From a virus: DNA of 37,434 nucleotides. The position numbers were made by a program, and so were the translations under genes. The stretch spans positions 1 through 37,434 of IMG/VR virus record IMGVR_UViG_3300037264_009342; one strand, written 5' to 3'. Position 1 is the stretch's first letter. Each line of letters opens with the position of its first letter. The notes under the pieces are model-generated. The model was not told the DNA's origin. It made no database searches and saw nothing but the letters and a program-made list of their open reading frames with translations. Shown here piece after piece: positions 1 through 37,434 of the stretch.

Positions 1-246
1 GGGTCCGGGCCGGTGGGGGTTGCCAAGGACATTCTCGAACGAGGCGGGAAGATCGCCGACAGGATGGGCAATGCGTACGGCTATATCGATACGTTCTCGA
101 AGGTTTTTTCGCTGATCGTCAAGGTCGAAGAGCAGGGTTGGACGATGGAAGAGGCGGTCCTGACGGTGGATGACTACTACGCCAATTACAACCGCTTGGG
201 CGACGTCACAAATTGGCTGCGCCGCAACTTCGGCGGAGCGTCGTTT
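1..246. repeat. Terminal direct repeat, left copy
   Basis: Bases 1-246 match 37189-37434 except at one site: C at 120 against G at 37308. The difference is a third codon position (GTC/GTG, both Val) in the giant gene. This shows that the contig closes on itself with a 37,188-bp unit. It fits either a circularly assembled, circularly permuted genome or a true short direct terminal repeat. An imperfect overlap argues for real variation between molecules rather than a pure k-mer artefact. Confidence 0.95.
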
Positions 247-1089
247 GCCGCCTTCACCGACCAAACGGCCAAGCGGGCGGTGCGCGGAGTGCGCAATCGG
301 GCGGGCACGATGGCGGCGATGATCGCGTTTCCCGGCTTGCTGACGTTGGCGACCAAGCTGCTGCTCGGGGTGGACGACGAAGAGGCGGAGTTGCTGCAAT
401 CGGGCACGCTCTATGACAAGATCAACAAGTACTGGCAGCCGTTGATTCCCTTCCGGGACAGCAAGGGCAAGCTCCTGCGTTGGGACCTCCGGTGGATTAT
501 TCCGCTGGTGAGCGACTTCCGGATTCAGACTGGGCCTGGTGGTATCGGGTTTCCGTTGCTGTTTACCGAACCGGTGTCCAACTCGTTGATCGAATTGATG
601 ATGAATCGCGAGGGGTACACGGGCCGGGACATCTTCACCCGCGACGCTTCGACGGCGGTCCACGCGGCGGAGTTGACCGCCTACCTCGCCCGGTCTTTGG
701 TTCCGCTGCCGGCCATTGTGACCAAGGGCGCCGTGCGGATCGTCGAGGCGGCCCGCGGGGGGGACGAGGGTTACTTTCTGCGGACGGTGGCCAAGGAGAT
801 TTTCGGGGTGAACATTCGGGCGGCGAGCGTCGATCGCCAGACGGTGTACAAGATCCTCCGTCAGCGACACAGCCGAGCTGATCAGGACGGTATGCGGGCG
901 ATTGTGAAGTGGTGGGACAACGTCTACCGGATTCCCGAACGGCCCGGTAAGGAAGCCCGGTCACCGGTGAGCGATGCAGGCCTGACGCGGTCCATCGTGG
1001 CGGCTAGGAAGCGTGAAGCGATCCCGCCTGACGAGGACGCACGGGAGACGGGGTTTTTCCGGCGCATCGGCGAGCGGGCGGTGGATTGA
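1..1089 (+). CDS. C-terminal part of the giant virion (polyvalent/ejection) protein
   Basis: This is the 3' end of the gene that starts at 31543. Frame 1 is open from base 1 and is continuous with the frame that reaches 37434; joined through the repeat they make one 2,244-aa protein. A GTG at 13 could look like a start but has no role once the contig is closed. The segment is mostly helical. It has a hydrophobic stretch around MAAMIAFPGLLTLATKLLLG (about bases 309-370) that could insert in a membrane, then a charged C-terminus ending at TGA 1087-1089. The helical, aromatic-rich pattern resembles the C-terminal domains of 'large polyvalent protein' phage proteins (LPD38-like); this is by eye only. 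In podoviruses such giant late proteins are usually packaged in the capsid and ejected with DNA. Not an independent gene. Confidence 0.8.
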   Translation, partial: GSGPVGVAKDILERGGKIADRMGNAYGYIDTFSKVFSLIVKVEEQGWTMEEAVLTVDDYYANYNRLGDVTNWLRRNFGGASFAAFTDQTAKRAVRGVRNRAGTMAAMIAFPGLLTLATKLLLGVDDEEAELLQSGTLYDKINKYWQPLIPFRDSKGKLLRWDLRWIIPLVSDFRIQTGPGGIGFPLLFTEPVSNSLIELMMNREGYTGRDIFTRDASTAVHAAELTAYLARSLVPLPAIVTKGAVRIVEAARGGDEGYFLRTVAKEIFGVNIRAASVDRQTVYKILRQRHSRADQDGMRAIVKWWDNVYRIPERPGKEARSPVSDAGLTRSIVAARKREAIPPDEDARETGFFRRIGERAVD

Positions 1090-4574: not shown

Positions 4575-5093
4575 ATGGTGGGCATGGGTGCGGTGAATCC
4601 AGCCGGGGACTCGACGGGCCTGATCAGTTTACTACCCGACCCGGCTGTGTGGGGCCCGCTGATCATCGCGCCCGCGTCCCCGTTGTGGGTGAGTCCGGCC
4701 GTACCCCTGGGCTGGGTGTCGCCCATTGCCCTGGCGGCGCCGGTTGTTCCGCCTCCGGTATCCCCGCCCACCATCTACCTTCGCACGAGCGAGGGGGCGA
4801 TGTGGTGTTGGCTGCACATTCTGGCCTCGCGCTCCGTCGGCTCGGATAGTAAGCTCAATCTTGAGATTTCCCCTATATTCGACGGGGTGAACACGCGGGT
4901 TACGCGGAAGCCCGTGCTCGAATATCTGCTCGATCTGGTGGCGTATCCGAGTGAGCGTTACTTCATGAATCTGGACATCGAAGACGTTGGCGAAGGGTTC
5001 GTCGTTGCCGTTCGCCTCACCGGCGGCGCAAGCGAAATCGTGGTCAATACCCTGCAGATTCGACGCGGAACCGTAGCCCAGGGGCATCGTTGA
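4575..5093 (+). CDS. Unknown 172-aa protein preceding the portal
   Basis: ATG 4575 (alternative ATG 4584, both downstream of GGGGTTAGG). The N-terminal ~75 residues are Pro/Ala/Val-rich and low in charge (e.g. LIIAPASPLWVSPAVPLGWV), like a flexible or surface-exposed arm. The C-terminal ~95 residues form a compact alpha/beta domain (WCWLHILASRSVGSDSKLNL, VLEYLLDLVAYPSERYFMNL). Its TGA 5091-5093 shares a base with the portal ATG (TGATG), so it is coupled to the head genes and is probably a minor structural or packaging factor. No family recognised. First gene of the structural operon; no TACATTGTA site precedes it. Confidence 0.6.
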   Translation: MVGMGAVNPAGDSTGLISLLPDPAVWGPLIIAPASPLWVSPAVPLGWVSPIALAAPVVPPPVSPPTIYLRTSEGAMWCWLHILASRSVGSDSKLNLEISPIFDGVNTRVTRKPVLEYLLDLVAYPSERYFMNLDIEDVGEGFVVAVRLTGGASEIVVNTLQIRRGTVAQGHR

Positions 5094-7321
5094 TGGCGTA
5101 CGAGTCGGACACCTCTACGGATTCTGGGCGAGCCAATGCCAAGGCCTCCTACGACATCGATTGGGACACAGCCTCTGACGAGCAGGTCGTCAGCTTCGTG
5201 TTCTCCAACTACCGAGAAGGGAAGGGCCGCCGCGAAGCGTGGGAAATCGAAGCCGATCGCCAACTCGCCTGGCTGCGGGGCAATCAGTCCGACCACCTAT
5301 GGAAGTGGCTCGAGGAGGAGTCGTCCGCCGATGTGGTTCCGTTAGCCGAACGCGTACCCATTCAGGTCAATCGACTTCGGCCTTTTGTGTTGCAGCAACT
5401 GGCGATGTTGGTGGGTCGCCCGTTGGCGATGCGCGTGTTCCCGCGTACCGCGGATCAAGACGACGTGGCCGCGGCTCGGCTGAGTGAGAAGGTACTGGCC
5501 TTCTACTTCCAGGCCGGGGTGACCAGCGGCTCGCGAATGCTCTATGACGCGCTGTGGGAAATGTTCGGGACCGGGCTGCACTTTGCCAAGGTGACGTGGG
5601 ATCCGCACCGCGGGCGGCGGGACCGCTTTGGGCCCCGAGACGTAGGGATCGATGACGCGGATGAACCGACGGGTCGCACCCGGTTCCAAAAGATGATCGC
5701 CGGGATGCTGGGCACACGTGAGGCCGACGTTCCCCTTGACGCGGACGGCGGGTTCGAGACGCCGGCCGGTGAGCTCGCCGTCGAGTTTTGCTCCGCGTTT
5801 GACGTTACCGAGCCCGCTAACGCCAGGAATGTGGGAGAGTCCCCATGGTTGATCCATTCCCGCCTGCGTCCGATGCGCTACGGTCGAGAACGATACGGCA
5901 AACGCTTTGCCGAGGTGCAGCCGGACAAGGGTGAGCTCCGAGACGTGCGACGGTTCACCTCGTACACCAGCGCAGCGCTCGGCTCGGACAATGAGTGCGA
6001 TGAGATCTTGATCCATGAGTTGTGGGTTCCGAAAAGTGACTCCGTGCCCAACGGGTGTTTGGTCGTTGTGGCCGGCGGGAAGCTGATCCACAAATCGGAG
6101 CACCCCTATGTAGACGGTCTGATCCCGTTCGTACCTTTGCAGGAGCTTCCGGACCCTCAGTTTTTCAGGCCAGGGTGTACCATTCGAGACGCGATGTCTC
6201 TGCAACAAGCGATCAACGTGACCCGCTCGATGGAAATGGGGCATCTCTATCAGACCATCAACCCGCACGTAATGGCTGAGGCGAGCGTGGACGTGCCGCG
6301 TGACGCGTTTTCCCGGGTGGGGCCGCAGTTCATTAAGGTGTCGGACGACGCACTGGTATCGGGCCGGATTCGACCGTGGGTGCCCAACCCGCTGCCTAAC
6401 CACGCGATCCCGCTGGATCAACTCAACCGCTCCGACCTGGAGGACGTGACGCGGGTCCACGCCAACACGCTCGGGCGTGTAGAAAGCTCCTCGCAAAGCG
6501 GGCGGGCCGTGGCCTTGAATCAGCAGGCGAACGTGCGAGCGTCGACCGTCACGCGGCGGCTGCTCGAAGAATCGTTTTCCAAGATCGGACAGATGATGCT
6601 CAGCCGGGCGGCTCAGTTCGTGACCGGGTCGCAGTTGGCCGTCTTGGCCGGCGAGCGGGGCCCGACCGAAGTATTTTCGTTTACCGGAAAGCAGTTGCTC
6701 GGCAAAGATCGAACGTCGGGGCCCTGGAACTTCAATGTCAAGGTCGTGCTCAGTGAGGAGCGAGAGTTCGAGGCGATGCTCGAACAGGTGGATACGCTGA
6801 CCGCTCGGGGCTGGTTGAACCCGGGCAGCGAGTCGGATCGGATCGCCGTTCGGCGTTGGCTCGGCGACAAGTTCGTCGGCGACTTCGATGAGGACGGCCC
6901 GCATCGGGGCAACGCAACCATCGAAAATCGGGACATGGTGGCGGGCAAAACGGTCAGCGTGGCGCTGGGCGACGATAATCCGGTACACATCATGGAGCAC
7001 CGGCGTTTCACGACGACTGCGGATTACCGCGAGGCTGCTGCCTTGGACGCGGGGATCGACGTTCGATTCAGGGCCCATCTACGGCAGCACGAACTCGAAA
7101 ACGCTGAGGGCATTCTACGCCCCATGGCGATCGCGGAGAGTGTTCGCGGTAGATTGGCCCAGGAATATGGGTTGGGCGGCCCGGGTGGTCCTGGGGCCGA
7201 CCGGGCGGGTCCTGGTCAGCCCGTGGTGGTCGGACCCGGACCAATGAACGGACGGGGTGGTCCGCCAGGAAATGGAAGCGGTGGCGGCGGGCGGATGTTC
7301 CCGTCGGTCGGAACGGCGTAA
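5093..7321 (+). CDS. Portal protein
   Basis: 742 aa from ATG 5093, which overlaps the previous stop. It is the size of podovirus portals (about 550-750 aa). The N-terminal part reads like a portal wing: REAWEIEADRQLAWLRGNQ followed by RVPIQVNRLRPFVLQQLAML, the conserved helix that normally introduces the 'GNRP/GRP' region, here LVGRPLAMRVFP (about residues 104-115). The middle has the expected 'WEMFGTGLHFAKVTWDPH' strand pair; later comes a long clip/stem helical region (SLQQAINVTRSMEMGHLYQT and VTRRLLEESFSKIGQMMLSR). The C-terminus is Gly/Pro-rich. The portal forms the dodecameric DNA channel at one capsid vertex and docks terminase. Followed by scaffold and capsid, the standard order. Confidence 0.85.
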   Translation: MAYESDTSTDSGRANAKASYDIDWDTASDEQVVSFVFSNYREGKGRREAWEIEADRQLAWLRGNQSDHLWKWLEEESSADVVPLAERVPIQVNRLRPFVLQQLAMLVGRPLAMRVFPRTADQDDVAAARLSEKVLAFYFQAGVTSGSRMLYDALWEMFGTGLHFAKVTWDPHRGRRDRFGPRDVGIDDADEPTGRTRFQKMIAGMLGTREADVPLDADGGFETPAGELAVEFCSAFDVTEPANARNVGESPWLIHSRLRPMRYGRERYGKRFAEVQPDKGELRDVRRFTSYTSAALGSDNECDEILIHELWVPKSDSVPNGCLVVVAGGKLIHKSEHPYVDGLIPFVPLQELPDPQFFRPGCTIRDAMSLQQAINVTRSMEMGHLYQTINPHVMAEASVDVPRDAFSRVGPQFIKVSDDALVSGRIRPWVPNPLPNHAIPLDQLNRSDLEDVTRVHANTLGRVESSSQSGRAVALNQQANVRASTVTRRLLEESFSKIGQMMLSRAAQFVTGSQLAVLAGERGPTEVFSFTGKQLLGKDRTSGPWNFNVKVVLSEEREFEAMLEQVDTLTARGWLNPGSESDRIAVRRWLGDKFVGDFDEDGPHRGNATIENRDMVAGKTVSVALGDDNPVHIMEHRRFTTTADYREAAALDAGIDVRFRAHLRQHELENAEGILRPMAIAESVRGRLAQEYGLGGPGGPGADRAGPGQPVVVGPGPMNGRGGPPGNGSGGGGRMFPSVGTA

Positions 7322-8278: not shown

Positions 8279-9514
8279 ATGGCTTCAGGGACAGCCACGC
8301 CGGTAACCGTCGCGGATCTTCTGCGCACGGTATACCTGCCGTCGATGCGTAAGCAGTTCTCTTCAAAATCAGTCTTGTTGCAGGTCCTGGAGCGACGCAC
8401 GGAAACGGTCGCCGAAGGACTTTCCATCTCATTCCCGAGACTCAAGAACACCGGCCAAGGGTACGGGTGGTCCACGATCGGAAACCTCCCCGCGGGCGGT
8501 CATGCCGACGTCGGGCGGTCCAACTGGAACTACAAACGTCAGTATGCGGCCCTGAAACTCAGCGGGGCGCTAATGGACGCCAGTCGGGCCGCCACCAGCG
8601 CCGACGCCCAGGCCCTCAAGATCATGACGACGGCGAAGATGACGGGCATCCGGCGCCGGGCGAATTTTCTGTTGTACGGGGACGGGACGGGTGTCCTGGC
8701 CACGCCAAGCGCTGCGTCGAGCGCTACGAGTTTCACCGTAGCGAACGCTCGCGGCCTCGAACGCCAGATGCTCATCGACGTGCTGTTGGCGTCCAACGGA
8801 ACCGTTGCCGCCGGGGTGGATGGCGCCGAGTGCGCGGTCAACAAGGCAACGGGTGTCGTCACCTTAACGTCCGGGTCTCTGGCCGACTTCGCTACGGTCA
8901 ACGCCTCCCCAACGCTGTATAAGGTCTACGAACACGGCTCACGCAACGACGTGGTGTTCGGCCTGGATGCGGCGGTCTCGAACGCCAACCCGGCAAGCGG
9001 CTTTTTTGGGAGCGTAGACCGCACACTGGCTACCAATGAGGACTGGAAAGGGAACGTGCTGGATAACCCGGCGGGCGTCGGCGGCACGCCGCGTGCGATC
9101 ACGTTCCGGTTGATGCAGGATGCGTTGGACCTCGTTGAGTCCAACAGCGACGGGACGGTGGACCTGATCATCTGCGGCTTCAAGGTCTGGCAGATCCTCG
9201 CGGACATCCTCACCGATCAGAAACGGTACGTCGGGTCCGACAACAAGCTGAACGGGTGGATGCGAGCGCATGACTTCGCCGGAACCCCGGTGGTACGCGA
9301 CGAGCATTGCCCCCAGGACCAAATGTTCTTCCTGGATAAGTCGAGTTTTCGGATCCTGCAGAACGACCCGGGCGATTGGTGGTCCCCAGACGGCACGATG
9401 TTCGATCGCGTGCCCGGCCAAGAGGCGGTGCAGATCATTTGGCGCCATCCGTGGCAATTATCGTGCGACGCCCCGGCGGCCAACGCGGTCATTAAGGACT
9501 TGTCCACAACGTAA
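8279..9514 (+). CDS. Major capsid protein (HK97-fold family)
   Basis: 411 aa from ATG 8279, typical length. After an N-terminal helix (TPVTVADLLRTVYLPSMRKQ) comes the strongly conserved-looking beginning of a phage coat: VLEFL-like core 'ISFPRLKNTGQGYGWSTIGN' and 'KRQYAALKLSGALMDASRAA', with an RRANFLLYGDGTGVLA segment that is a hallmark of environmental podovirus coats. The rest includes long beta stretches and a C-terminal P-domain-like part (ILQNDPGDWWSPDGTMF, VQIIWRHPWQLSCDAPAA). It follows scaffold and precedes a 209-aa protein. No Shine-Dalgarno sequence of note, despite the expected high expression; the upstream element may matter. Not clearly assignable to a P22- or T7-like subgroup. 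Confidence 0.85.
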   Translation: MASGTATPVTVADLLRTVYLPSMRKQFSSKSVLLQVLERRTETVAEGLSISFPRLKNTGQGYGWSTIGNLPAGGHADVGRSNWNYKRQYAALKLSGALMDASRAATSADAQALKIMTTAKMTGIRRRANFLLYGDGTGVLATPSAASSATSFTVANARGLERQMLIDVLLASNGTVAAGVDGAECAVNKATGVVTLTSGSLADFATVNASPTLYKVYEHGSRNDVVFGLDAAVSNANPASGFFGSVDRTLATNEDWKGNVLDNPAGVGGTPRAITFRLMQDALDLVESNSDGTVDLIICGFKVWQILADILTDQKRYVGSDNKLNGWMRAHDFAGTPVVRDEHCPQDQMFFLDKSSFRILQNDPGDWWSPDGTMFDRVPGQEAVQIIWRHPWQLSCDAPAANAVIKDLSTT

Positions 9515-21835: not shown

Positions 21836-21949
21836 GTCCGATGCCGTCGGATTGCGACGGACCTCAGCGACCCGCATCCCCGCCCGTTCCAAGCCCAGGT
21901 CGAAGCCGCCGATCCCAGTGAACAAGGAACCGAAGGTAAATTGAGGCAT
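21806..21949 (-). pseudogene. 5' stub of a DNA cytosine-5 methyltransferase
   Basis: ATG 21949 overlaps the stop of the previous gene (TGATG). The first ~25 residues (MPQFTFGSLFTGIGGFDLGL, then ERAGM) are motif I of C5-cytosine methyltransferases (F-x-G-x-G-G, binding S-adenosylmethionine). After residue ~27 homology stops: VAEVRRNPTASDVEILRAET followed by TGA. The expected acidic motif II segment, the PCQ catalytic loop (motif IV) and the target-recognition domain are missing, and no continuation is seen in the next 200 bases. Only 47 aa remain of the ~300+ in a normal enzyme. The break coincides with diverged repeat sequence. It cannot methylate DNA as it stands. Confidence 0.75.
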
Positions 21950-22707
21950 CACGCCCGAGCGGCAGCTTGTACCGGCATCTCGTTCCACTCCTGCCCGCGC
22001 CACTTTCGCCCGCGAGCTTTCTTGTGGATGCCGCCCCACTGTTTGAAGAAAAACGGCACGCCCGCCGCGATGCACTGGTCGTGAACGTTTGCCACCCACT
22101 CCGGCTTCATCACTCGAGCGCCGGGACCGCTCTCGCCCCCGACGATCACCCAATCGATATTGGTCAGGTCCAGCGGCCCGATATCCTCAAGCAAAGGTTC
22201 TACGCTCAAGAATCGCACGCACGGCCCGATGATTTGCCGCAGGTCGTCAATCCTGGGCACCCCCCTGGTTCGATCTTCGACGCTGACCCCAACCCATAAC
22301 GCCGGCCACAACAGCGGGGCGATCGCCGTTGAAGTCCGTCCCCATGAGTCCACGAACGTACGCATTCGGCGGGCGCGTTTGGTCAACACCTGGTAGACGT
22401 GGCGCTGGTTGAAGGCCATCACCTCGAACACGCGTTCGATGTACACCATCGGCACCGATTCGTGGAACAGGTCGCTCATCGAGCAGACGAATATCCGCCT
22501 GGGCTTCTTCCATCGGCTCGGATCGCCGAGGGACTCGGGCACCAGACGCAACTCGAAGCCGTCTTCGTAGGGGTGCCCTTCGACCCCTTTGAAGCGATTG
22601 GCGAACCGCTCGGCGTAGCAGTGGGTGCAGCCGGGGCTGACCTTGGTGCAGCCCCGCACCGGGTTCCACGTTGCGTCCGTCCACTCGATGGTAGAAACGT
22701 TGCTCAT
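21949..22707 (-). CDS. Phage Gp37/Gp68-like protein (DUF5131)
   Basis: 252 aa from ATG 22707, overlapping the previous small ORF as ATGA. The N-terminus has IEWTDATWNPVRGCTKVSPG followed by CTHCYAE: a C-x7-C-x2-C cluster with the CYAE signature of DUF5131 (phage Gp37/Gp68), a family related to radical SAM proteins. Further motifs: RIFVCSMSDLFHESVP, HVYQVLTKRARRM, WVGVSVEDR, FLSVEPLLEDIG, WVIVGGESGPGARVM, PFFFKQWGG, all typical. Probably an iron-sulfur enzyme acting on a nucleotide or nucleic acid; the substrate is unknown. Third frame of a coupled cluster. Confidence 0.85.
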   Translation of the reverse strand: MSNVSTIEWTDATWNPVRGCTKVSPGCTHCYAERFANRFKGVEGHPYEDGFELRLVPESLGDPSRWKKPRRIFVCSMSDLFHESVPMVYIERVFEVMAFNQRHVYQVLTKRARRMRTFVDSWGRTSTAIAPLLWPALWVGVSVEDRTRGVPRIDDLRQIIGPCVRFLSVEPLLEDIGPLDLTNIDWVIVGGESGPGARVMKPEWVANVHDQCIAAGVPFFFKQWGGIHKKARGRKWRGQEWNEMPVQAAARA

Positions 22708-23472: not shown

Positions 23473-25143
23473 TCACAGCGGGCGAGCCGCCACGTCCCGC
23501 AGCAGCCGGGCCGCTCGTCGCATCCGGTCGCGGTCCCGACGCTTGGCGGATTCGGCGCCGGGATCCACGCCGGCGTCCACCCCGAGCGACGGCATACGCA
23601 CGAGCTCCGGGCGGTGGTCCAACGACTTCGAACCCGCGATCAACTGCGAAACCAACCGGATGCCCTCCAGGCGTTCCTTCTCCGGTTTGTCCTTTACTCC
23701 GTCCGGGCCGTGGCTGCGGAGCACGGCGCTGCCGATCGTTGGGATCCCGTTGACCCGGTAAAGCTGGATCATCTTGGGCCAGGATCGGTCGGCGACCGTT
23801 CCCTGGTAGATTTCTCCGCCCTCAGCGGGCACCCACGTGCCCGGCTTGGCATTGTCACCAGCTACGGCCTGTCGCCAGCCGGACATGGCGTGGACCTCGG
23901 CGATCTCCATGATCGGGTCCCACCCTTTGATCGCGGAATCCACGCGGTAGGACTCGCGGTACACATAGACCAAGCCCTGGAGGTTCCAGCGCGTGACCGC
24001 GTATCGCAGGGCGTCACACGCGTGGTCCTGTTTCTTCAGCGGCTCATCGGGTCGGTCCGGGTCCCACCGGTACCCGAGCAGCTCCCGGATGGTGTTCGGG
24101 CACTTGGGACTGACCAGGAGCGCCGATGGCCCGGGGAACACCGCGAGCCACAGGCATACCTGAGCCGATTCGCCTTGGCCCCAGTCTATGGCTCGGTAGC
24201 GGATCGTTTCCTGGTAGAGCGGGACGTCCCCGATGCAGCGTTGGGACGTGAACAGCGGGTAGATGCGGCCCGCGGCGAACTCCCAAGCGTCAGCCTCGCT
24301 CTCAGGGTATTCGCGCTTACGCAAGATGGGCGAAACGGCGTCGAGTTCCGCACATCGCGTCTGGAACCAGACGTCATCGCGCCCCGCCCGCTCGGCCCAA
24401 CCCAGGAACGTCGGGACCAGGAGCGTCGGGCCACGCCCGGTATTCGGATCGAGCAGCTCCCCGAATGACCCATACGTCGCCCGCCATAGGTCAAAGAAGT
24501 CTCCGTGCGGGCCGTCAGAGGTGGAGATCACGAAAAGCTGACCGGACGCGACCTCGAGCGCTGGGCGTATGGCAACGACGCAATCGCCCAGCGCTGGGCA
24601 CCGGGCGGCCTCGTCGATAATGATCAGGTCCCCACTGACGCTCCGCGCCGCTTTGCCCGATCCGGCAAGGCACCGGAGCTCACCATTGTGACCGCGGGCC
24701 TCGAACCGCACTTGCTCCTCGTTGTTTTTGGTGGGCGTTAGTCGCATCGACGTGGGCAGTTGATCGTGCATCCACAGGAAGCGGCGTTTGAAGTCCTGCG
24801 CATAGCCACGCTCCTGGGCCAAGACCATGACCGAAAAGTAGCGGGTGTAGATCAGCCGCCAAAGGGCGTAGGCCACGCACAGCCAGGTCAGCCCGAGCTG
24901 TCGGGCTTTCAGCGCGATGAGCGACTCACCCGACGCCATCAATGCCGCGATCCGCCCCTGGCCCGGGAAGAAGATCAGGGGGACAGGCCGCTTGTTGGCC
25001 TTGTCCAGGACCTTGGCGTACCTCGAACACCAACGCTGGAAGCCTTCGAATCCCCGCTGCGTACTGCAGAGGGCGTATTCCTCGATCGCGGATGGCGGAC
25101 GTCGGATGTCGGACGTTAAGGCGATTGTTGTCACATCCGACAT
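23473..25143 (-). CDS. Terminase large subunit (TerL)
   Basis: 556 aa. The ATPase domain shows a Walker A-like ALKARQLGLTW (about residues 77-87; the R-Q-L-G-x-T form common in terminases), Walker B LIIIDEAAR (about 175-183), and a coupling region after it (FVISTSDGPHGDFFDLWRAT). The nuclease part includes YRAIDWGQGESAQVCLWLAV, with the first acidic residue of the RNase H-like fold, and a later helix KKQDHACDALRYAVTRW. After that comes an unusual extra C-terminal domain of ~150 aa rich in strands (GEIYQGTVADRSWPKMIQLY). The first 18 or so residues (MSDVTTIALTSDIRRPPSAI) are encoded by a repeat element; the start may differ. TerL cuts and pumps DNA into the head through the portal. Confidence 0.9.
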   Translation of the reverse strand: MSDVTTIALTSDIRRPPSAIEEYALCSTQRGFEGFQRWCSRYAKVLDKANKRPVPLIFFPGQGRIAALMASGESLIALKARQLGLTWLCVAYALWRLIYTRYFSVMVLAQERGYAQDFKRRFLWMHDQLPTSMRLTPTKNNEEQVRFEARGHNGELRCLAGSGKAARSVSGDLIIIDEAARCPALGDCVVAIRPALEVASGQLFVISTSDGPHGDFFDLWRATYGSFGELLDPNTGRGPTLLVPTFLGWAERAGRDDVWFQTRCAELDAVSPILRKREYPESEADAWEFAAGRIYPLFTSQRCIGDVPLYQETIRYRAIDWGQGESAQVCLWLAVFPGPSALLVSPKCPNTIRELLGYRWDPDRPDEPLKKQDHACDALRYAVTRWNLQGLVYVYRESYRVDSAIKGWDPIMEIAEVHAMSGWRQAVAGDNAKPGTWVPAEGGEIYQGTVADRSWPKMIQLYRVNGIPTIGSAVLRSHGPDGVKDKPEKERLEGIRLVSQLIAGSKSLDHRPELVRMPSLGVDAGVDPGAESAKRRDRDRMRRAARLLRDVAARPL

Positions 25144-30679: not shown

Positions 30680-31537
30680 ATGGCAAACAAACAGAATCTA
30701 GTCATTTTTCACGGGAATTGTCCAGACGGATTCACCGCGGCGTGGCTCTTCTGGAGGTGGCTGGGTGAAGATGCGCAGTACGTCGCGGCGGGTTACGGAG
30801 ACCCACCACCGGACGTGGCCGGGCGGAACGTCTACCTCGTGGACTTTTCCTATCCGCGTGACGTCCTGCTGCGGATGAACGAGGAAGCGGCCTCGCTGCT
30901 CGTGCTGGATCATCACAAGACGGCGGAGGAAGCGCTTGCCGGTTTGCCGTTCTGTGTGTTCGACTTGAAACAATGCGGTTCTCAATTGGCCGCGATTTGG
31001 TTGATGCGTGAAGTTCAACTACGGCTCGACAAGGTTGATACGGAGTTCATTCTTTACGTCGCCGACAACGACCTTTGGACTAGACAGCTTGCGAACACGG
31101 ACGAAGTGCGAGCGGCGTACTTAGCCACCCCCTTTGAGTTCGCGGTGTGGACTGAGTTCGTCCTTGAGGGAAAAGATCAGTGGGTAAAGTGGGGACGACT
31201 GATCCTGGCGTACCACCGGCTCATAGTGGAGCATCACAAGAAGCAGAGGTTCTTGATGAATGTCGGCGGGCACGTTGTGCCCGCGTTCAACCTGACGATT
31301 AAAGACGTGGTCAGCATGCTTCTTCACGAAGCGTGCCAAGGCGAGCGGTTCGCTGTCGCCTTTTGGTTCAACGGGCGGAAGTGGGAATACTCGTTACGCT
31401 CGGACGAGCAAGGTGAGGACGTGTCTGATATTGCCAAGCTGTTCGGGGGTGGCGGCCACAAACACGCGGCCGGTTTTCAACTCCTGGAGTGTGACCGGGT
31501 TCTGCGTAGGCTCCTTCCGCTCCAGTGTTCGGGGTAG
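30680..31537 (+). CDS. DHH-DHHA1 family phosphoesterase
   Basis: 285 aa from ATG 30680, with GAAGG at 30665-30669. Motif I FHGNCPDGFTAAWLFW, motif II VYLVDFSYPRD (Asp), motif III LVLDHHKTAEEA (the DHH), motif IV YVADNDLW (Asp), and the DHHA1-type end LFGGGGHKHAAGFQLL are all intact. The enzyme should hydrolyse short RNA/DNA or linear or cyclic dinucleotides using two metal ions. Typical lengths are 270-400 aa. It sits in the internal-virion gene block, not near replication genes, which is unusual. Substrate unknown; nanoRNA turnover or degradation of a host nucleotide signal are both possible. Confidence 0.85.
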   Translation: MANKQNLVIFHGNCPDGFTAAWLFWRWLGEDAQYVAAGYGDPPPDVAGRNVYLVDFSYPRDVLLRMNEEAASLLVLDHHKTAEEALAGLPFCVFDLKQCGSQLAAIWLMREVQLRLDKVDTEFILYVADNDLWTRQLANTDEVRAAYLATPFEFAVWTEFVLEGKDQWVKWGRLILAYHRLIVEHHKKQRFLMNVGGHVVPAFNLTIKDVVSMLLHEACQGERFAVAFWFNGRKWEYSLRSDEQGEDVSDIAKLFGGGGHKHAAGFQLLECDRVLRRLLPLQCSG

Positions 31538-31542
31538 CGCCC

Positions 31543-34500
31543 GTGCCGGAACCGGAAATCTTTGGACCTGAAGCTGCCGACTTTGTTGGTGATGCGGCGG
31601 CAAGTACACGCCTTAATCCCCAGCCGGGTCCGTGGGACGCCACCTGGGCGAACATTGTAGACGACCTGGCCGCTCGACGTGCGGCGGCCCGGGCCCCGGT
31701 CGGACAAAGTCCAGAGCGAAGTGCAACGCTCCAAGCCTTTCGAACCGGCCTCGATCCAAAGCAAACCGCATACTTCGATCGGGTCTTTGGCCCGCAGAGT
31801 CGGTTAACCCGACCGGACGATTTTCCAACTCTACCGGTCGGCTTTGGCGGCATGTCCGATCTCGCGGTCGCGGCCCCGCCATCTCCGACATCCGACGTCC
31901 CCCATCCAACATCCGACATCTTCCCCGAGGGTTGGAACCAACCCGAACTCGAAGCCCAAATCGAAGCGCAGAGTACCGGCGTCGACCCCCTGGGTCTTGC
32001 TGGCCAGACGCGAACCGAACCGTACGACGAGTATCGGAGGATGCGGGCCGCTGCGGAGCGGCGGGCCTATGGCCTGAGCGTTTCACGTGGCACGGACTGG
32101 GGCTTCAGCGCCGAACGACAGCCCGCGTCGTTCCTGCGGGTATTGGCCGACCCGTTCTTTAGGGCCGCTCGGTCGGTGAAGAACTTCGCCCTGGAACAAG
32201 ACGTTCTGAACCCGCTGATTGAGGACGTGGTCGAGAAGGAACTGAGCCACCGCGTCGCCCAAGGGGTGATCCCGCCCCCCGGTGAGCGGCGGAAGTTCTG
32301 GGACGAAAATTCCAAGCAAGAATGGGCCGGGAACCGGCTGGCGTGGCCTGCACCGGCCAATGTTGAGACGGGCGAGGCCCTGATCCCGGCGATGAAAAGG
32401 GCCATTCGCAAGGAGTTGACTGAACTGGGCATGCCCATGTTCGCGCCGGAAGCGGTGAAAGGCCAACTCGAGCTGTACGACCACTACCGAGAAATGGGTG
32501 CGGACGAACTCGGACCACGAGACGTTGCGAGCGTTCGCAACAAGTTGGCCAGATTCGCCGGCGAGACTGCGGCGTTCATCGGCGAACTGGCCATACTTCG
32601 TCGTCCGTTCCTGGGCGTTGGGCGGCTCGCCGGGCGGGCCCTGCTGCCCGCTCGGGTGTCCGGGCTTACCGCTGAGTCGGTGGCGCTTGAGGCGGCGCGG
32701 ACCGCTGAGCGGGCCCGGTTCGGCGGGGCGTTAGCCACGGAGCTCGGTGTCGGCGCCCAGGCTGCTCTGCACGGTCAGGAGCTGCTGCCGGCCATGGCGG
32801 GTTTCGCTCCGATCGCCGCGACCGGGCTGTTGCGGAATCCGTTCACCGCGGCCGGCGTTCAGGCCGGCGTGTTTGGCGGCGGCGCGTATCTCCGGGGCGG
32901 GGACGTGTCCGACGTGGTGATCGAGGGCGTCTTGGGCCCGTTGATCTTCAACGCGGGGGCGATGCTTCGGTATCCCCTGAGTCTGCGTGGTTTCGACGCC
33001 ATCCCCGGTATCCCGCCGGGGGCCGGACCACGCATGCGCGAGGCGACCTGGGAAGATTTACGGCGCAGTTCCGATCCCGTCGCCCGAGCGGTGTACACGT
33101 GGAACGAGATGGCACGCGGCGGGGCGTCGGAAGAGGCGGTTCGGGCCGCGGGGCAACGGATGCAAGAACTCCGCGAGCGCATGGCGGACCCGAACTCGAA
33201 GTGGGAGTTCACCCGGGGACAACGCGAGCTGATGGATCGGTTCGTCGATTGGAACGAATTCATCGGGCGACCGGCGGGGACGACTCCAAACTCCGGGGAA
33301 CCACCCGGCGTGAACGCCGGGGCTCGGGCGTCCGATGTCCGACCACCGACAACATCCCCGGGAGAGGTTCCGAATGAGGCGATTCCCGGAGGCGTGCCTG
33401 TGCGCGGGGGAGAGTTGGCGACGCCCGCGACCATACAAACCATTCAACGAGGAGGAGCCGGCTATGCCGCTCAACAAGGGCAACAGCAAGAAGGTGTTAC
33501 GCGAGAACGCGCTGGAGTTGATGAAGGCCGGTTACCCGCGGGACCAGGCGTGGGCGGCGGCCTACAAGAAGGCCCGGGCGGCCAAAGGCAAGAAGGGGAA
33601 GTAGCTCGCCTCGAATTGCCCGCCTCCGTCGCAGAATCCGAGGGGCTGGGTTCCCCCACGGCTGCGGCGGAAGGCGGTTATTCGCGAGAACAGATCGCGG
33701 CGTACGAAGAGGCCAACCCACGTCCGCGCAAGCCCGGCGTGGACTTGCCCCCGGAAGTAGCCAACAAACCGCACGTTCGAGCCTACGAGGAGACGCGTCG
33801 CGAGCGACTCGCCGTTGCGGAATTGTCCTGGGAAGAAGCCCGCGAAGCGGCTATGCCGGGTCTGGCGGCCCAAATCGAACAGCAGCAAATAGCCTCGGCC
33901 AAGGACTCGGCGGAACGGCACGCACAACGGCGAGCCGCGAAAGCGGCGGCCAGACAAACGACGCCGCAGGGCCGCGGGCAATACGTCCCCGGCGCTCGCG
34001 TGGGGATCGGAGAGGCGGAGAAGCGGGTTATCGAAATCTTCGACAGTCACCCTGACCTGTTTGAAGGGAGCGGGATCCAAGAGGGCAACTTCGATTATGA
34101 GCACGGGCGCCGTGGCGAAGATATCATTCGGCCCGGCTACAGCTTCAAGGAAACCTCAGCCGGTGCGGCGCGGGAACTGAAGGAGCGGCTGCCGAAACAC
34201 CTGCAGATGCACGTCAAAATCATTCCACGCGGCGATCCGCGCTGGAACTCGGCGGATGGGGCGGACGTTATGGCGGACGTCGGGACAGACGCGATGGCCG
34301 AAGCGATCACCGGATTCGCCGAGTTGGGGACCGGCAAACAGGCGAAGATCAGGCGTGCGGCTGAATTGGTTGTGAATGAACCCCGGCTGTTTACGCCGGA
34401 AGACTTGATCACGGTCCACAACTACAAAATGATTTCTGAGGGCGAGATTGTAGTCCAGAAACAGGCCGCTAAGTTCAAGGTCGGCGATACGCTGGACATT

Positions 34501-37434
34501 CTGGGTGAGAAGCACACTGTCACCGAGTCCGACGACTTCTGGGTCGTGCTCGAAAACGGCCTGACCCTCGGCCTGCCGCCGTCGACGAAGATCGCGGTTC
34601 CGAAAGAACCGCCCGCACCTTCGCCCGCGACGCCGGACCATATCCCTGAACCCGGCAAAATGGTCGAGCCGCAAGACGTTCCGACGTCCGAACCGGCCGG
34701 GGAGCCTCTCGCAGAGACGCAAAGACGCAAAGGATCAGAGGCGAAGCTGGTTGCCACTGAAGCACGGGCGTCGATTCAAAGCGAGAGGGTTCCCTATGAT
34801 CAATGGTTGAAAAGGAATCCTCAGCCCCCACGCGCATACAGAATGGAAGACGCGCACGCCGGGGCGGAATGGGCCGAGCTACGGAATCGGGAGTCAGATT
34901 ACCTTCAACTGCCCGTTGAGTATCGGCGTGATTTGACGGAAGCGGCTCCGGACCATTTTCCTGAACCCGGCGAAATGGTAGAGGCGCAAGACGTTCCGAC
35001 GTCCGAACCGGCCGGCGATGTCACACCGCGCGCCTATTCCGCACCGCCGGAGGACCAACTGGCTCCGGCTATCGAAGCGATGGAAGCACAGAGCTGGTCC
35101 GCCATTCTGAAGGGAAGAAGCACGACTGGCGAAAGGCAGACGATTCTCTGGACCGCTGAACAGAATGCCAGAAGGATCGCCGTTGTCATGGGCGGGCCGA
35201 CGGCCAAGGGAGTCAAGGTGTTCCCCTCGATGGTCGGCGAGCCCAACGGTTGGTGGGTCGAGACGCGGCTTGGAAAGAACCCGTACGATTTTATGCGGTT
35301 TTTTATTCGCGACGCCGAGCCCGCGGTCGCCCGACGCGGCGGACCGAATGGAGAGCCGACCGACGTTGCGGACATCGTTGGCGGACAGCCCCGGATGAAT
35401 GCGAGGGCTCTGGCGGGGGCTACGACGCAAGAATCGACATCCGCCGAACCCAGTACGACCTCGCCGGGATTCCCCATTCCGGCCCGCCCCGGACCTGGAC
35501 AGGCCCCTACTGCCCTCGCAGAGACCGGGTCCGGGGCACCCCTTGAATCTTCCTCCTCCGAAGGCGGACCCGGGTCGGAATTAACGACCCCGGCCCGGTC
35601 CGCCCCGCTTTTGGACGTTGGGGACATAGGCCCGTCGCCGCCGTCGCCCGCAGCATGGCCGCCGTCCGAGTTCACCCCGGAGCAACGAGAGTACCTGCGA
35701 CGGGTGGCCAAAGAGGAGCCGGACCGCCCGACGCACGGCATGGGCGCCGCGTTGGCGAATCCAGACGCGCCACGCAATCGGGTGGCGGAAACCTACGATG
35801 CAATCGCCAAACGCATCCTGAGCGTTCCCCAGGGCACGCTACAGGGCTTCCTGTTGGACGTGTTCGGGCGGGCGGTCTACGGAAACGAGTGGCGGCTGCC
35901 GCCCCATATCCGACTCGGGTTCCAATCGATCAAAGGCGAACGGGCGTTCCGGGAATGGCAGGCCTCGAAGCTCACAGAGCGGATGGAGGAACTGGCCAAG
36001 CTGTCCCACGACGACAGCCCAGAACGCTGGGACAACCTGGAGGCGGTCTTTCTGGGTCGCAAGACACCCGAATCGCTCCCGCCGGCTGTGCAGGGCGTCT
36101 ATCGAACGTTCGAAGCCCTGAGCCAGGCCCAGACCGACGAAATTCTCGCCGACCCTGAGATGTGGCCCCATTTGCGGGAGCTGGGCGGCCTGATGAACGT
36201 CGAGGAGATGATCAGGCACCGCCGCGAGGACATGCCCGGCGTCTACCTGCGTTCGATCTACCAGACGGTGACCACCGCGGAAGGGATAGAGTGGTCGAAG
36301 GTTTTCTTCTGGTCGGAACGTGGGCACCGGTTCCGCGAGTCACGAGCGGTCGGCGCGAGGTTAAAAGGCGGCCCGTTTAAGCCCAAGGCCGGTGAGCACG
36401 GCGACTACACGCTGAAACGAGCGGACGGGACGACATGGCAATGGGCCAAAGAGGATGTAGACCTGGCCTACGAGGCCTACGGCCGGGAGATCAACGCCAA
36501 TAAGGAGAAATACGGGGAGTCGGTCTACGACCGGGTCAAGCTGATCACGCCGTTCGGAGAGAAGAAACGCAAAGAGCTGGTGCCATATCCGGTTCCGGTC
36601 CGCATGGCCCAGACCTTGGTGCAGATGGGAGAATTTCTGGCCACCTGGAAGCTGTTTAAGGTCCTGGCTCGGACGGTAGCCATCCATCGCAGTCCGCCGA
36701 CCGAAGATGACCCGCACCCCATGCAGGGCACGTTCGAGGTTCCACCAGGGGTGTTGGAATACAAGCTGATACCCGACGAGCCGGCCTACGGTCCGCTTCG
36801 GGATACCATGGTCCCCGAGCCGGTCTGGGAAAACATCATGGAGGTTCGCCGGGTCAACACCAGTCTGGCAGCGGCGCTGTGGGACGGATTCTCCCACAAG
36901 TGGCGCTGGTCCAAGGTTGTCGCCAGCCCCGCAACTTGGTTTCGCAACTACATGACCCAGAACATGATCTGGGCGCTGGACGTACACCCGGCAGCGCACC
37001 CGTCTGCCGCTCGCAAAGCGGTCAACGACATCGCAGAGCGTGGTCCGTACTGGCGGACGCTGGTGCGCTACGGAGTGCTGGGCACGGACTTCGCACGGAC
37101 GGATGCGCTCGAGTTAAAGGGGATGTTGGATACCCCGGGGGCCGAGCAATTGACCGTGCTGCTGTGGGAAATGGCGGCAAAGCACGCGGGGTCCGGGCCG
37201 GTGGGGGTTGCCAAGGACATTCTCGAACGAGGCGGGAAGATCGCCGACAGGATGGGCAATGCGTACGGCTATATCGATACGTTCTCGAAGGTTTTTTCGC
37301 TGATCGTGAAGGTCGAAGAGCAGGGTTGGACGATGGAAGAGGCGGTCCTGACGGTGGATGACTACTACGCCAATTACAACCGCTTGGGCGACGTCACAAA
37401 TTGGCTGCGCCGCAACTTCGGCGGAGCGTCGTTT
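31543..37434 (+). CDS. Giant virion protein, N-terminal 1,964 codons (continues at base 1)
   Basis: GTG 31543 (GGGG upstream) opens a frame without a stop to the window end. It continues in frame through the terminal repeat to TGA 1087-1089: 2,244 codons in all. Layout by residue: 1-100 mixed; 104-127 repeat-derived (MSDLAVAAPPSPTSDVPHPT); 200-340 helical; 341-483 hydrophobic, perhaps membrane-active; 585-690 Pro/Gly/Gln-rich linker that overprints a small gene; 715-830 charged helices; 977-1020 SH3-like; 1030-1158 with a 105-residue-spaced duplication; 1285-1370 low-complexity Pro/Ser; 1380-2244 a long conserved-looking helical/aromatic region (FTPEQREYLRRVAKEEPDRP; WRWSKVVASPATWFRNYMTQ). 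It resembles large polyvalent/ejection proteins of podoviruses, where several activities are joined. Two ancestral genes may have fused near 33300-33750. Confidence 0.75.
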   Translation, partial: MPEPEIFGPEAADFVGDAAASTRLNPQPGPWDATWANIVDDLAARRAAARAPVGQSPERSATLQAFRTGLDPKQTAYFDRVFGPQSRLTRPDDFPTLPVGFGGMSDLAVAAPPSPTSDVPHPTSDIFPEGWNQPELEAQIEAQSTGVDPLGLAGQTRTEPYDEYRRMRAAAERRAYGLSVSRGTDWGFSAERQPASFLRVLADPFFRAARSVKNFALEQDVLNPLIEDVVEKELSHRVAQGVIPPPGERRKFWDENSKQEWAGNRLAWPAPANVETGEALIPAMKRAIRKELTELGMPMFAPEAVKGQLELYDHYREMGADELGPRDVASVRNKLARFAGETAAFIGELAILRRPFLGVGRLAGRALLPARVSGLTAESVALEAARTAERARFGGALATELGVGAQAALHGQELLPAMAGFAPIAATGLLRNPFTAAGVQAGVFGGGAYLRGGDVSDVVIEGVLGPLIFNAGAMLRYPLSLRGFDAIPGIPPGAGPRMREATWEDLRRSSDPVARAVYTWNEMARGGASEEAVRAAGQRMQELRERMADPNSKWEFTRGQRELMDRFVDWNEFIGRPAGTTPNSGEPPGVNAGARASDVRPPTTSPGEVPNEAIPGGVPVRGGELATPATIQTIQRGGAGYAAQQGQQQEGVTRERAGVDEGRLPAGPGVGGGLQEGPGGQRQEGEVARLELPASVAESEGLGSPTAAAEGGYSREQIAAYEEANPRPRKPGVDLPPEVANKPHVRAYEETRRERLAVAELSWEEAREAAMPGLAAQIEQQQIASAKDSAERHAQRRAAKAAARQTTPQGRGQYVPGARVGIGEAEKRVIEIFDSHPDLFEGSGIQEGNFDYEHGRRGEDIIRPGYSFKETSAGAARELKERLPKHLQMHVKIIPRGDPRWNSADGADVMADVGTDAMAEAITGFAELGTGKQAKIRRAAELVVNEPRLFTPEDLITVHNYKMISEGEIVVQKQAAKFKVGDTLDILGEKHTVTESDDFWVVLENGLTLGLPPSTKIAVPKEPPAPSPATPDHIPEPGKMVEPQDVPTSEPAGEPLAETQRRKGSEAKLVATEARASIQSERVPYDQWLKRNPQPPRAYRMEDAHAGAEWAELRNRESDYLQLPVEYRRDLTEAAPDHFPEPGEMVEAQDVPTSEPAGDVTPRAYSAPPEDQLAPAIEAMEAQSWSAILKGRSTTGERQTILWTAEQNARRIAVVMGGPTAKGVKVFPSMVGEPNGWWVETRLGKNPYDFMRFFIRDAEPAVARRGGPNGEPTDVADIVGGQPRMNARALAGATTQESTSAEPSTTSPGFPIPARPGPGQAPTALAETGSGAPLESSSSEGGPGSELTTPARSAPLLDVGDIGPSPPSPAAWPPSEFTPEQREYLRRVAKEEPDRPTHGMGAALANPDAPRNRVAETYDAIAKRILSVPQGTLQGFLLDVFGRAVYGNEWRLPPHIRLGFQSIKGERAFREWQASKLTERMEELAKLSHDDSPERWDNLEAVFLGRKTPESLPPAVQGVYRTFEALSQAQTDEILADPEMWPHLRELGGLMNVEEMIRHRREDMPGVYLRSIYQTVTTAEGIEWSKVFFWSERGHRFRESRAVGARLKGGPFKPKAGEHGDYTLKRADGTTWQWAKEDVDLAYEAYGREINANKEKYGESVYDRVKLITPFGEKKRKELVPYPVPVRMAQTLVQMGEFLATWKLFKVLARTVAIHRSPPTEDDPHPMQGTFEVPPGVLEYKLIPDEPAYGPLRDTMVPEPVWENIMEVRRVNTSLAAALWDGFSHKWRWSKVVASPATWFRNYMTQNMIWALDVHPAAHPSAARKAVNDIAERGPYWRTLVRYGVLGTDFARTDALELKGMLDTPGAEQLTVLLWEMAAKHAGSGPVGVAKDILERGGKIADRMGNAYGYIDTFSKVFSLIVKVEEQGWTMEEAVLTVDDYYANYNRLGDVTNWLRRNFGGASF
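31852..31922. repeat. ATCCGAC element in the giant gene
   Basis: ATGTCCGATCTCGCGG, then CCGCCATCTCCGACATCCGAC, GTCCCCCATCCAACATCCGA. It is translated as MSDLAVAAPPSPTSDVPHPT in frame. One-and-a-half arms are present rather than a full palindrome. Confidence 0.7.
33294..33350. repeat. Hairpin B with CATCC tail in the giant gene
   Basis: CCCGGCGTGAACGCCGGG (33304-33321), then GCTCGGGCGTCCGATGTCC and GACCACCGACAACATCCCC. It is encoded in frame as part of the linker. It is the kind of element that elsewhere lies between genes, and here precedes the nested small gene. Confidence 0.7.
33464..33604 (+). CDS. Nested 46-aa phage protein in a different frame of the giant gene
   Basis: ATG 33464 to TAG 33604, shifted +1 relative to the giant frame. 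A near-perfect Shine-Dalgarno sequence GGAGGAG (33451-33457) stands 6 bases before the ATG. The peptide is basic and helical: MPLNKGNSKKVLRENALELM, then KAGYPRDQAWAAAYKKARAA and KGKKGK. It matches the widespread small phage protein pattern 'MPL.KG.SKK....N...EM..G.P..QA.AIA...' whose function is unknown. In the giant frame the same bases give low-complexity Gly/Gln/Arg text, as expected where another frame sets the sequence. Probably translated from the same mRNA, independently of the giant protein. Confidence 0.75.
   Translation: MPLNKGNSKKVLRENALELMKAGYPRDQAWAAAYKKARAAKGKKGK
34633..35015. repeat. Direct repeat pair in the giant gene, 315 bp apart
   Basis: 34633-34700 and 34948-35015 share 68-bp copies differing at few bases (CCGGACCAT..CCTGAACCCGGC.AAATGGT..AG.CGCAAGACGTTCCGACG). 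The translations are PDHIPEPGKMVEPQDVPTSE and PDHFPEPGEMVEAQDVPTSE. The spacing is a multiple of three, so the frame is kept. The unit between contains a tail of another repeat family. Confidence 0.85.
34704..34740. repeat. ACGCAAAGACGC-family copy in the giant gene
   Basis: GCCTCTCGCAGAGACGCAAAG followed by ACGCAAAGGATCAGAG. It is in frame and translated (LAETQRRKGSE). It is related to the hairpin at 10329 and is a familiar bacterial interspersed motif. Confidence 0.65.
35386..35420. repeat. Diverged hairpin-B copy in the giant gene
   Basis: GCCCCGGATGAATGCGAGGGC, TCTGGCGGGGGC is a diverged copy of the CCCCGCATGAATGCGGGGGCTCGG element. It is in frame (QPRMNARALAG) and starts a low-complexity linker. 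Confidence 0.5.
37189..37434. repeat. Terminal direct repeat, right copy
   Basis: Copy of bases 1-246, with G at 37308 where the left copy has C (120). See the left copy. Position 37188 is the last unique base of the genome unit. Confidence 0.95.

Follow-up and report, generated by a model that had tools for sequence, protein, structure and literature searches.

How a short phage gene comes to lie wholly within another reading frame of a giant gene, and which of the two frames is the older, are the questions raised by positions 33464-33604 of a viral DNA of 37,434 nucleotides (a single virus record, IMGVR_UViG_3300037264_009342; this whole stretch is the window in what follows). Overlapping genes are usually told as the birth of a new gene inside an old one, and the preliminary description of this DNA likewise treated the short gene as overprinted. 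The order is reversed here: the giant frame ran over an old conserved gene, and this happened in at least two giant-gene lineages. The reading that we favor, with a probability of roughly three in four, is that a conserved head-region gene that ordinarily stands alone now lies inside a linker of the giant gene, in the +1 frame, and still works.

The giant frame and its linker

The first 246 nucleotides of the window recur at positions 37189-37434 with one mismatch (245/246), and the contig is a closed circle of 37,188 bases. Because this terminal repeat joins the ends in frame, the giant open reading frame (ORF) closes through position 1. Its first 1,970 codons (31525..37434, + strand) begin with GTG and run without a stop to the window end; the continuation after circular closure occupies 1..1089 (+ strand), the first 246 nt being the terminal repeat. 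The total is 2,250 codons, stop-free from 31525 across the circular join to 1089 and close to the 2,244 codons counted at first. Just upstream, a DHH phosphoesterase gene (30680..31537, + strand; phrog_4771, E 5.7e-67) overlaps the start of the giant ORF by 13 nt.

Over 33280..33603 (+ strand), a linker-like stretch that contains the small gene, the giant frame loses its coding signature. Its codon score is -0.04 across 33280-33393, 0.05 across 33394-33462, and -0.08 across 33463-33603, and over the small gene only 0.2% of in-frame windows score so low; directly after the small gene (33604-33738) it stands at 0.23, which no out-of-frame window matches. Since no start codon from 33604 to 33852 is led by GGAGG, translation from upstream is the simplest account of the downstream half of the frame. 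Two further low-score, linker-like stretches of the giant (~34680-34850 and ~35380-35660) hold no nested member of the small gene's family.

The host frame is indeed rich in Gly, Gln, and Arg over the small gene, as had been observed; this composition arises from reading the small gene's Lys, Asn, Ser, and Gln codons out of frame. The claim that the small gene is fully nested also stands, the giant frame being stop-free throughout. When synonymous codons were resampled (same small protein, phage codon use), the giant frame stayed open over the small gene in 13% of cases by chance, so that openness alone is weak evidence for selection on the giant frame there.

Searches with the window giant gave no significant Pfam, PHROGs, or NCBIfam domain. 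The segment PDH[IF]PEPG..MVE.QDVPTSEPAG occurs twice in the protein, at residues 1037 and 1142 (window 34633-35050). Another candidate duplication, in which residues 716-738 (GYSREQIAAYEEAN) would copy the small protein, was rejected when 10% of shuffles scored equally. The window giant shares its size, its many segments, and its linkers with the polyvalent phage proteins (Iyer et al. 2017, PMC5512222; a search of the article's text does not find the word "overlap"), but no polyvalent domain was detected in it; even so, it may act like a polyvalent protein.

A conserved family in the nested frame

The small ORF (33464..33604, + strand) encodes 46 aa, from ATG 33464 to TAG 33602-33604, and is read in the +1 frame relative to the giant ORF from GTG 31525. 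The strong ribosome binding site reported for it is present: the Shine-Dalgarno AGGAGGAG (33450..33457, + strand) lies 6 nt 5' of the ATG, with the spacer CCGGCT, where a weakly structured leader ends. Only 1.8% of the giant gene is as weakly structured as the initiation region around ATG 33464, whose folding energy is -9.9 kcal/mol against a giant-gene mean of -18.4 kcal/mol.

Membership in the PHROG_2423 family bears out the earlier impression of a recognizable small phage protein. The match (E 2.3e-14) begins at residue 1 and aligns residues 1-44 with positions 1-44 of the 52-position profile; the family-invariant P2, N15, G23, Q28, and A31 are all kept, as is the conserved MPL start (M1, P2, L3). 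When the phage's other genes are read in either of the shifted frames, none of 1,333 windows reaches the codon score of the small frame. Both frames are open across the whole small gene, and the coding signature is present for the nested frame. AlphaFold2 models the protein, with good confidence, as a two-helix hairpin (helices 9-21 and 26-44; pLDDT 86.7). Solved structures yielded no sequence match and the PDB no meaningful fold match for this model; among viral predicted structures, the best fold matches were short phage proteins or the N-termini of larger phage proteins, and these matches are consistent with the protein's own family. By profile match, invariant residues, and codon score, the small ORF is a true overlapping gene, real but easily missed and presumably translated.

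Elsewhere, the family has at least 194-225 relatives in IMG/VR per scan and 445 phage records. Most of its members are separate genes of ~40-60 aa whose neighbors, in podo-, myo-, and cyanophages, are portal, MuF, head protease, scaffold, and capsid genes; several form the N-terminus of head maturation proteases, and one Pbunavirus record labels its member (EPa61_78) "virion protein." Because family members adjoin or fuse with head-module genes, a role in or near head assembly is probable. From these sequences, the family is evidently old and widespread and usually a separate head-module gene. Because hundreds of phages have it as a gene on its own, the small frame is the older one and the giant frame a newcomer over ~47 codons, which turns the proposed overprinting around.

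The window copy shares family, length, MPL start, and invariant residues with EPa61_78 of Pbunavirus and with the N-terminal domain of the Obolenskvirus head maturation protease. These relatives are separate or N-terminally fused, whereas the window copy lies wholly inside another gene, in another frame. It is the only PHROG_2423 copy in the closed-circle genome, and it sits outside the usual portal-protease-capsid surroundings: the portal gene (5090..7321, + strand; phrog_156, E 3.2e-26), which belongs to the head module, and the major head protein gene (8279..9514, + strand; phrog_14242, E 6.7e-33) lie elsewhere, with the host giant ending ~4 kb before the portal on the closed circle.

Some variety is apparent within the family. 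A single ORF (L106:6001-8538) unites PHROG_2423, a NUDIX hydrolase, and a head maturation protease, and in cyanophage MED4-184 the family gene (L208:5001-5129) carries no annotation in the deposited record. Among prokaryote genomes sampled from three phyla, 7 of 984 matched; three of these seven are genomes that had been used as centers.

A second giant lineage

A scan for nesting covered 135 small-gene loci, drawn from IMG/VR, GTDB contigs, and phage records. In one of them (L177, with an ORF of 1,845 aa), the small gene lies inside a giant ORF. The family's common Met-Lys pair puts a stop in the other frame, so +1 is normally the sole possible offset. Of the 105 relatives with full context, 16 have no stop in the host frame across the small gene, and L177 alone among them has a host frame longer than 240 codons. 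Small ORFs within ORFs of 120-240 aa (L062, L092, L093, L094, L130, and L176) were treated as chance overlaps, their host ORFs being short; the three of these six loci scanned against PHROGs gave no match or a downstream match only. A later genome search added L202, where the small gene lies inside an ORF that is truncated and still spans at least 1,301 aa. Both L177 and L202 are contig fragments; L202 measures 4.3 kb and was binned with a Verrucomicrobiota genome. The two giants are homologous (E 4e-26 around the nested gene and 3e-21 at the C-terminus), with no detectable homology of the window giant to either.

This pair allows, for the second lineage, the kind of comparison of rates in both frames that had been recommended, and it reveals which frame selection acts on there. 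Nucleotide identity is 82-83% over the small gene and 53-65% in the flanks. The 29 differences over the nested gene fall 7/2/20 on small-frame positions 1/2/3 (chi-square 17.9 on 2 df, calculated by hand), so that 20 of the 29 are at third positions and the small frame is spared; amino-acid changes number 9 of 57 in the small frame and 26 of 58 in the giant frame. At the C-terminus of the same giants, the ordinary third-position pattern of the giant frame is seen. The substitutions over the nested gene point to selection on the small frame, with the giant frame merely kept open. Frames interrupted in relatives had been another suggested check: L177 and L202 keep both frames open, and the collections searched held no relative of the window giant.

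Both L177 and L202 carry a second copy of the giant protein's terminal domain immediately upstream of the small gene, whose ATG sits where the stop of that copy would be expected. A terminal-type domain in this position favors a former gene end, hence fusion, in the L177/L202 lineage. The L177 small gene has a weak Shine-Dalgarno. An [FY]MP motif occurs in five copies at apparent linkers of the L202 giant, one of them just after the nested gene, and in two copies in L177; it is possibly a processing or linker signal. The L202 ORF also has a sub-threshold ART-PolyVal match (PF18760, E 5e-6).

Expression, origin, and competing explanations

If the conserved gene still works within the giant linker, one mRNA would be expected to give both products. 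Ribosomes in the giant frame would read through the small gene and produce a tolerated Gly/Gln/Arg linker; other ribosomes would initiate internally at the strong Shine-Dalgarno and make the 46-aa two-helix protein, which might then be used in or near head assembly. The arrangement could have originated through loss of a stop that fused neighboring genes around the small gene or through insertion of the small gene into an existing linker. A fusion of two genes whose spacer held the small gene and a repeat element had been offered at the outset as an alternative to overprinting. The fusion is plausible; the repeat element was not found, and the short repeats D1 and D2, considered as a mobile element, were rejected as being at chance level. 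Insertion, in which the small gene and its leader would have entered a giant linker that already existed, is a serious contender to fusion, at somewhat less than even odds: the window gene has a leader of its own and lies in a long linker, away from the portal-capsid neighborhood, and the giant's other low-signal linkers have no such gene, but in L177 and L202 the terminal-type domain stops right at the small ATG, as it would at a former gene end.

Other explanations dispense with a working nested gene or with its age. The giant frame might not be one gene at all, with an upstream gene A, the small gene, and a downstream gene B as three distinct genes, in which case a missing stop or a sequence error would create the apparent continuity. 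The lack of a coding signature for the giant frame over 33280-33603 would fit such a layout, as would the ATG located 5 nt past the small-gene stop in L177 and L202. We nevertheless consider it unlikely, since the frame is stop-free from 31525 to 1089 and identical before and after the small gene, and continuity is seen in three independent contigs. GTG 33400, which lies behind GGAGG and could start gene B, was rejected as a second gene start because 84% of codon shuffles contain an in-frame GGAGG-NTG by chance; likewise, the FMP motif after the L202 gene recurs elsewhere in the same open frame at linker-like positions. Less likely still is that the small ORF is a dead copy in the linker whose translation has been lost. 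Its distance from the usual portal-capsid neighborhood could be so explained, but the invariant residues, start, Shine-Dalgarno, and codon use are all intact, it is the sole family copy in a circularly closed genome, and the small frame is under selection in L177 and L202. True overprinting, with the small gene born de novo inside the giant gene, would account for its being fully nested in a linker, yet is hardly credible given a family distribution in which the gene is widespread and separate and the window copy an ordinary member.

Fully nested phage genes are already known, the classical ones being Rz1 in Rz and phiX174 B, E, and K. The window pair is like these in using one DNA stretch in two frames with, presumably, internal initiation; it is unlike them in that the nested gene belongs to an old stand-alone family, the host frame is the newcomer, and the host gene is very large. 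This reversed history, together with its recurrence inside giant phage proteins, is a useful variant of nesting. Giant phage proteins may thus grow by fusing across neighboring genes or by taking insertions of them. A practical consequence is that genomes may seem to lack a conserved phage gene that they in fact carry, because gene callers that forbid overlap would miss nested genes. It is also conceivable, if rather improbable, that nesting in giant, possibly virion-injected proteins is recurrently favored as a co-expression device and is no accident. Synthesis of the small protein would then be tied to that of the giant through the shared mRNA, through internal initiation at a fixed ratio, or through a Shine-Dalgarno pause between giant domains.

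Searches for relatives of the phage found no close relatives of its giant, portal, capsid, or terminase in IMG/VR and no giant homologues in GTDB genomes; the collections may omit contigs very near the window genome, and the lack of close relatives is provisional. Relatives of the DHH gene (L006-L056) had structural genes without a match and no giant homologue. Two distant Manatee Spring podoviruses (L138 and L139) yielded no small gene and no giant, and the annotation of two further Manatee Spring records (L140 and L141) has no giant gene.

Two other genes of the phage can be recorded here. The terminase large subunit (23473-25143, - strand) is encoded opposite to and far from the portal and capsid genes. 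A gene at 21949-22707 (- strand) matches phrog_2045 (E 2e-92), one relative of which is annotated DUF5131; the phage has this protein in common with Gordonia and Mycobacterium phages, at ~47% identity.
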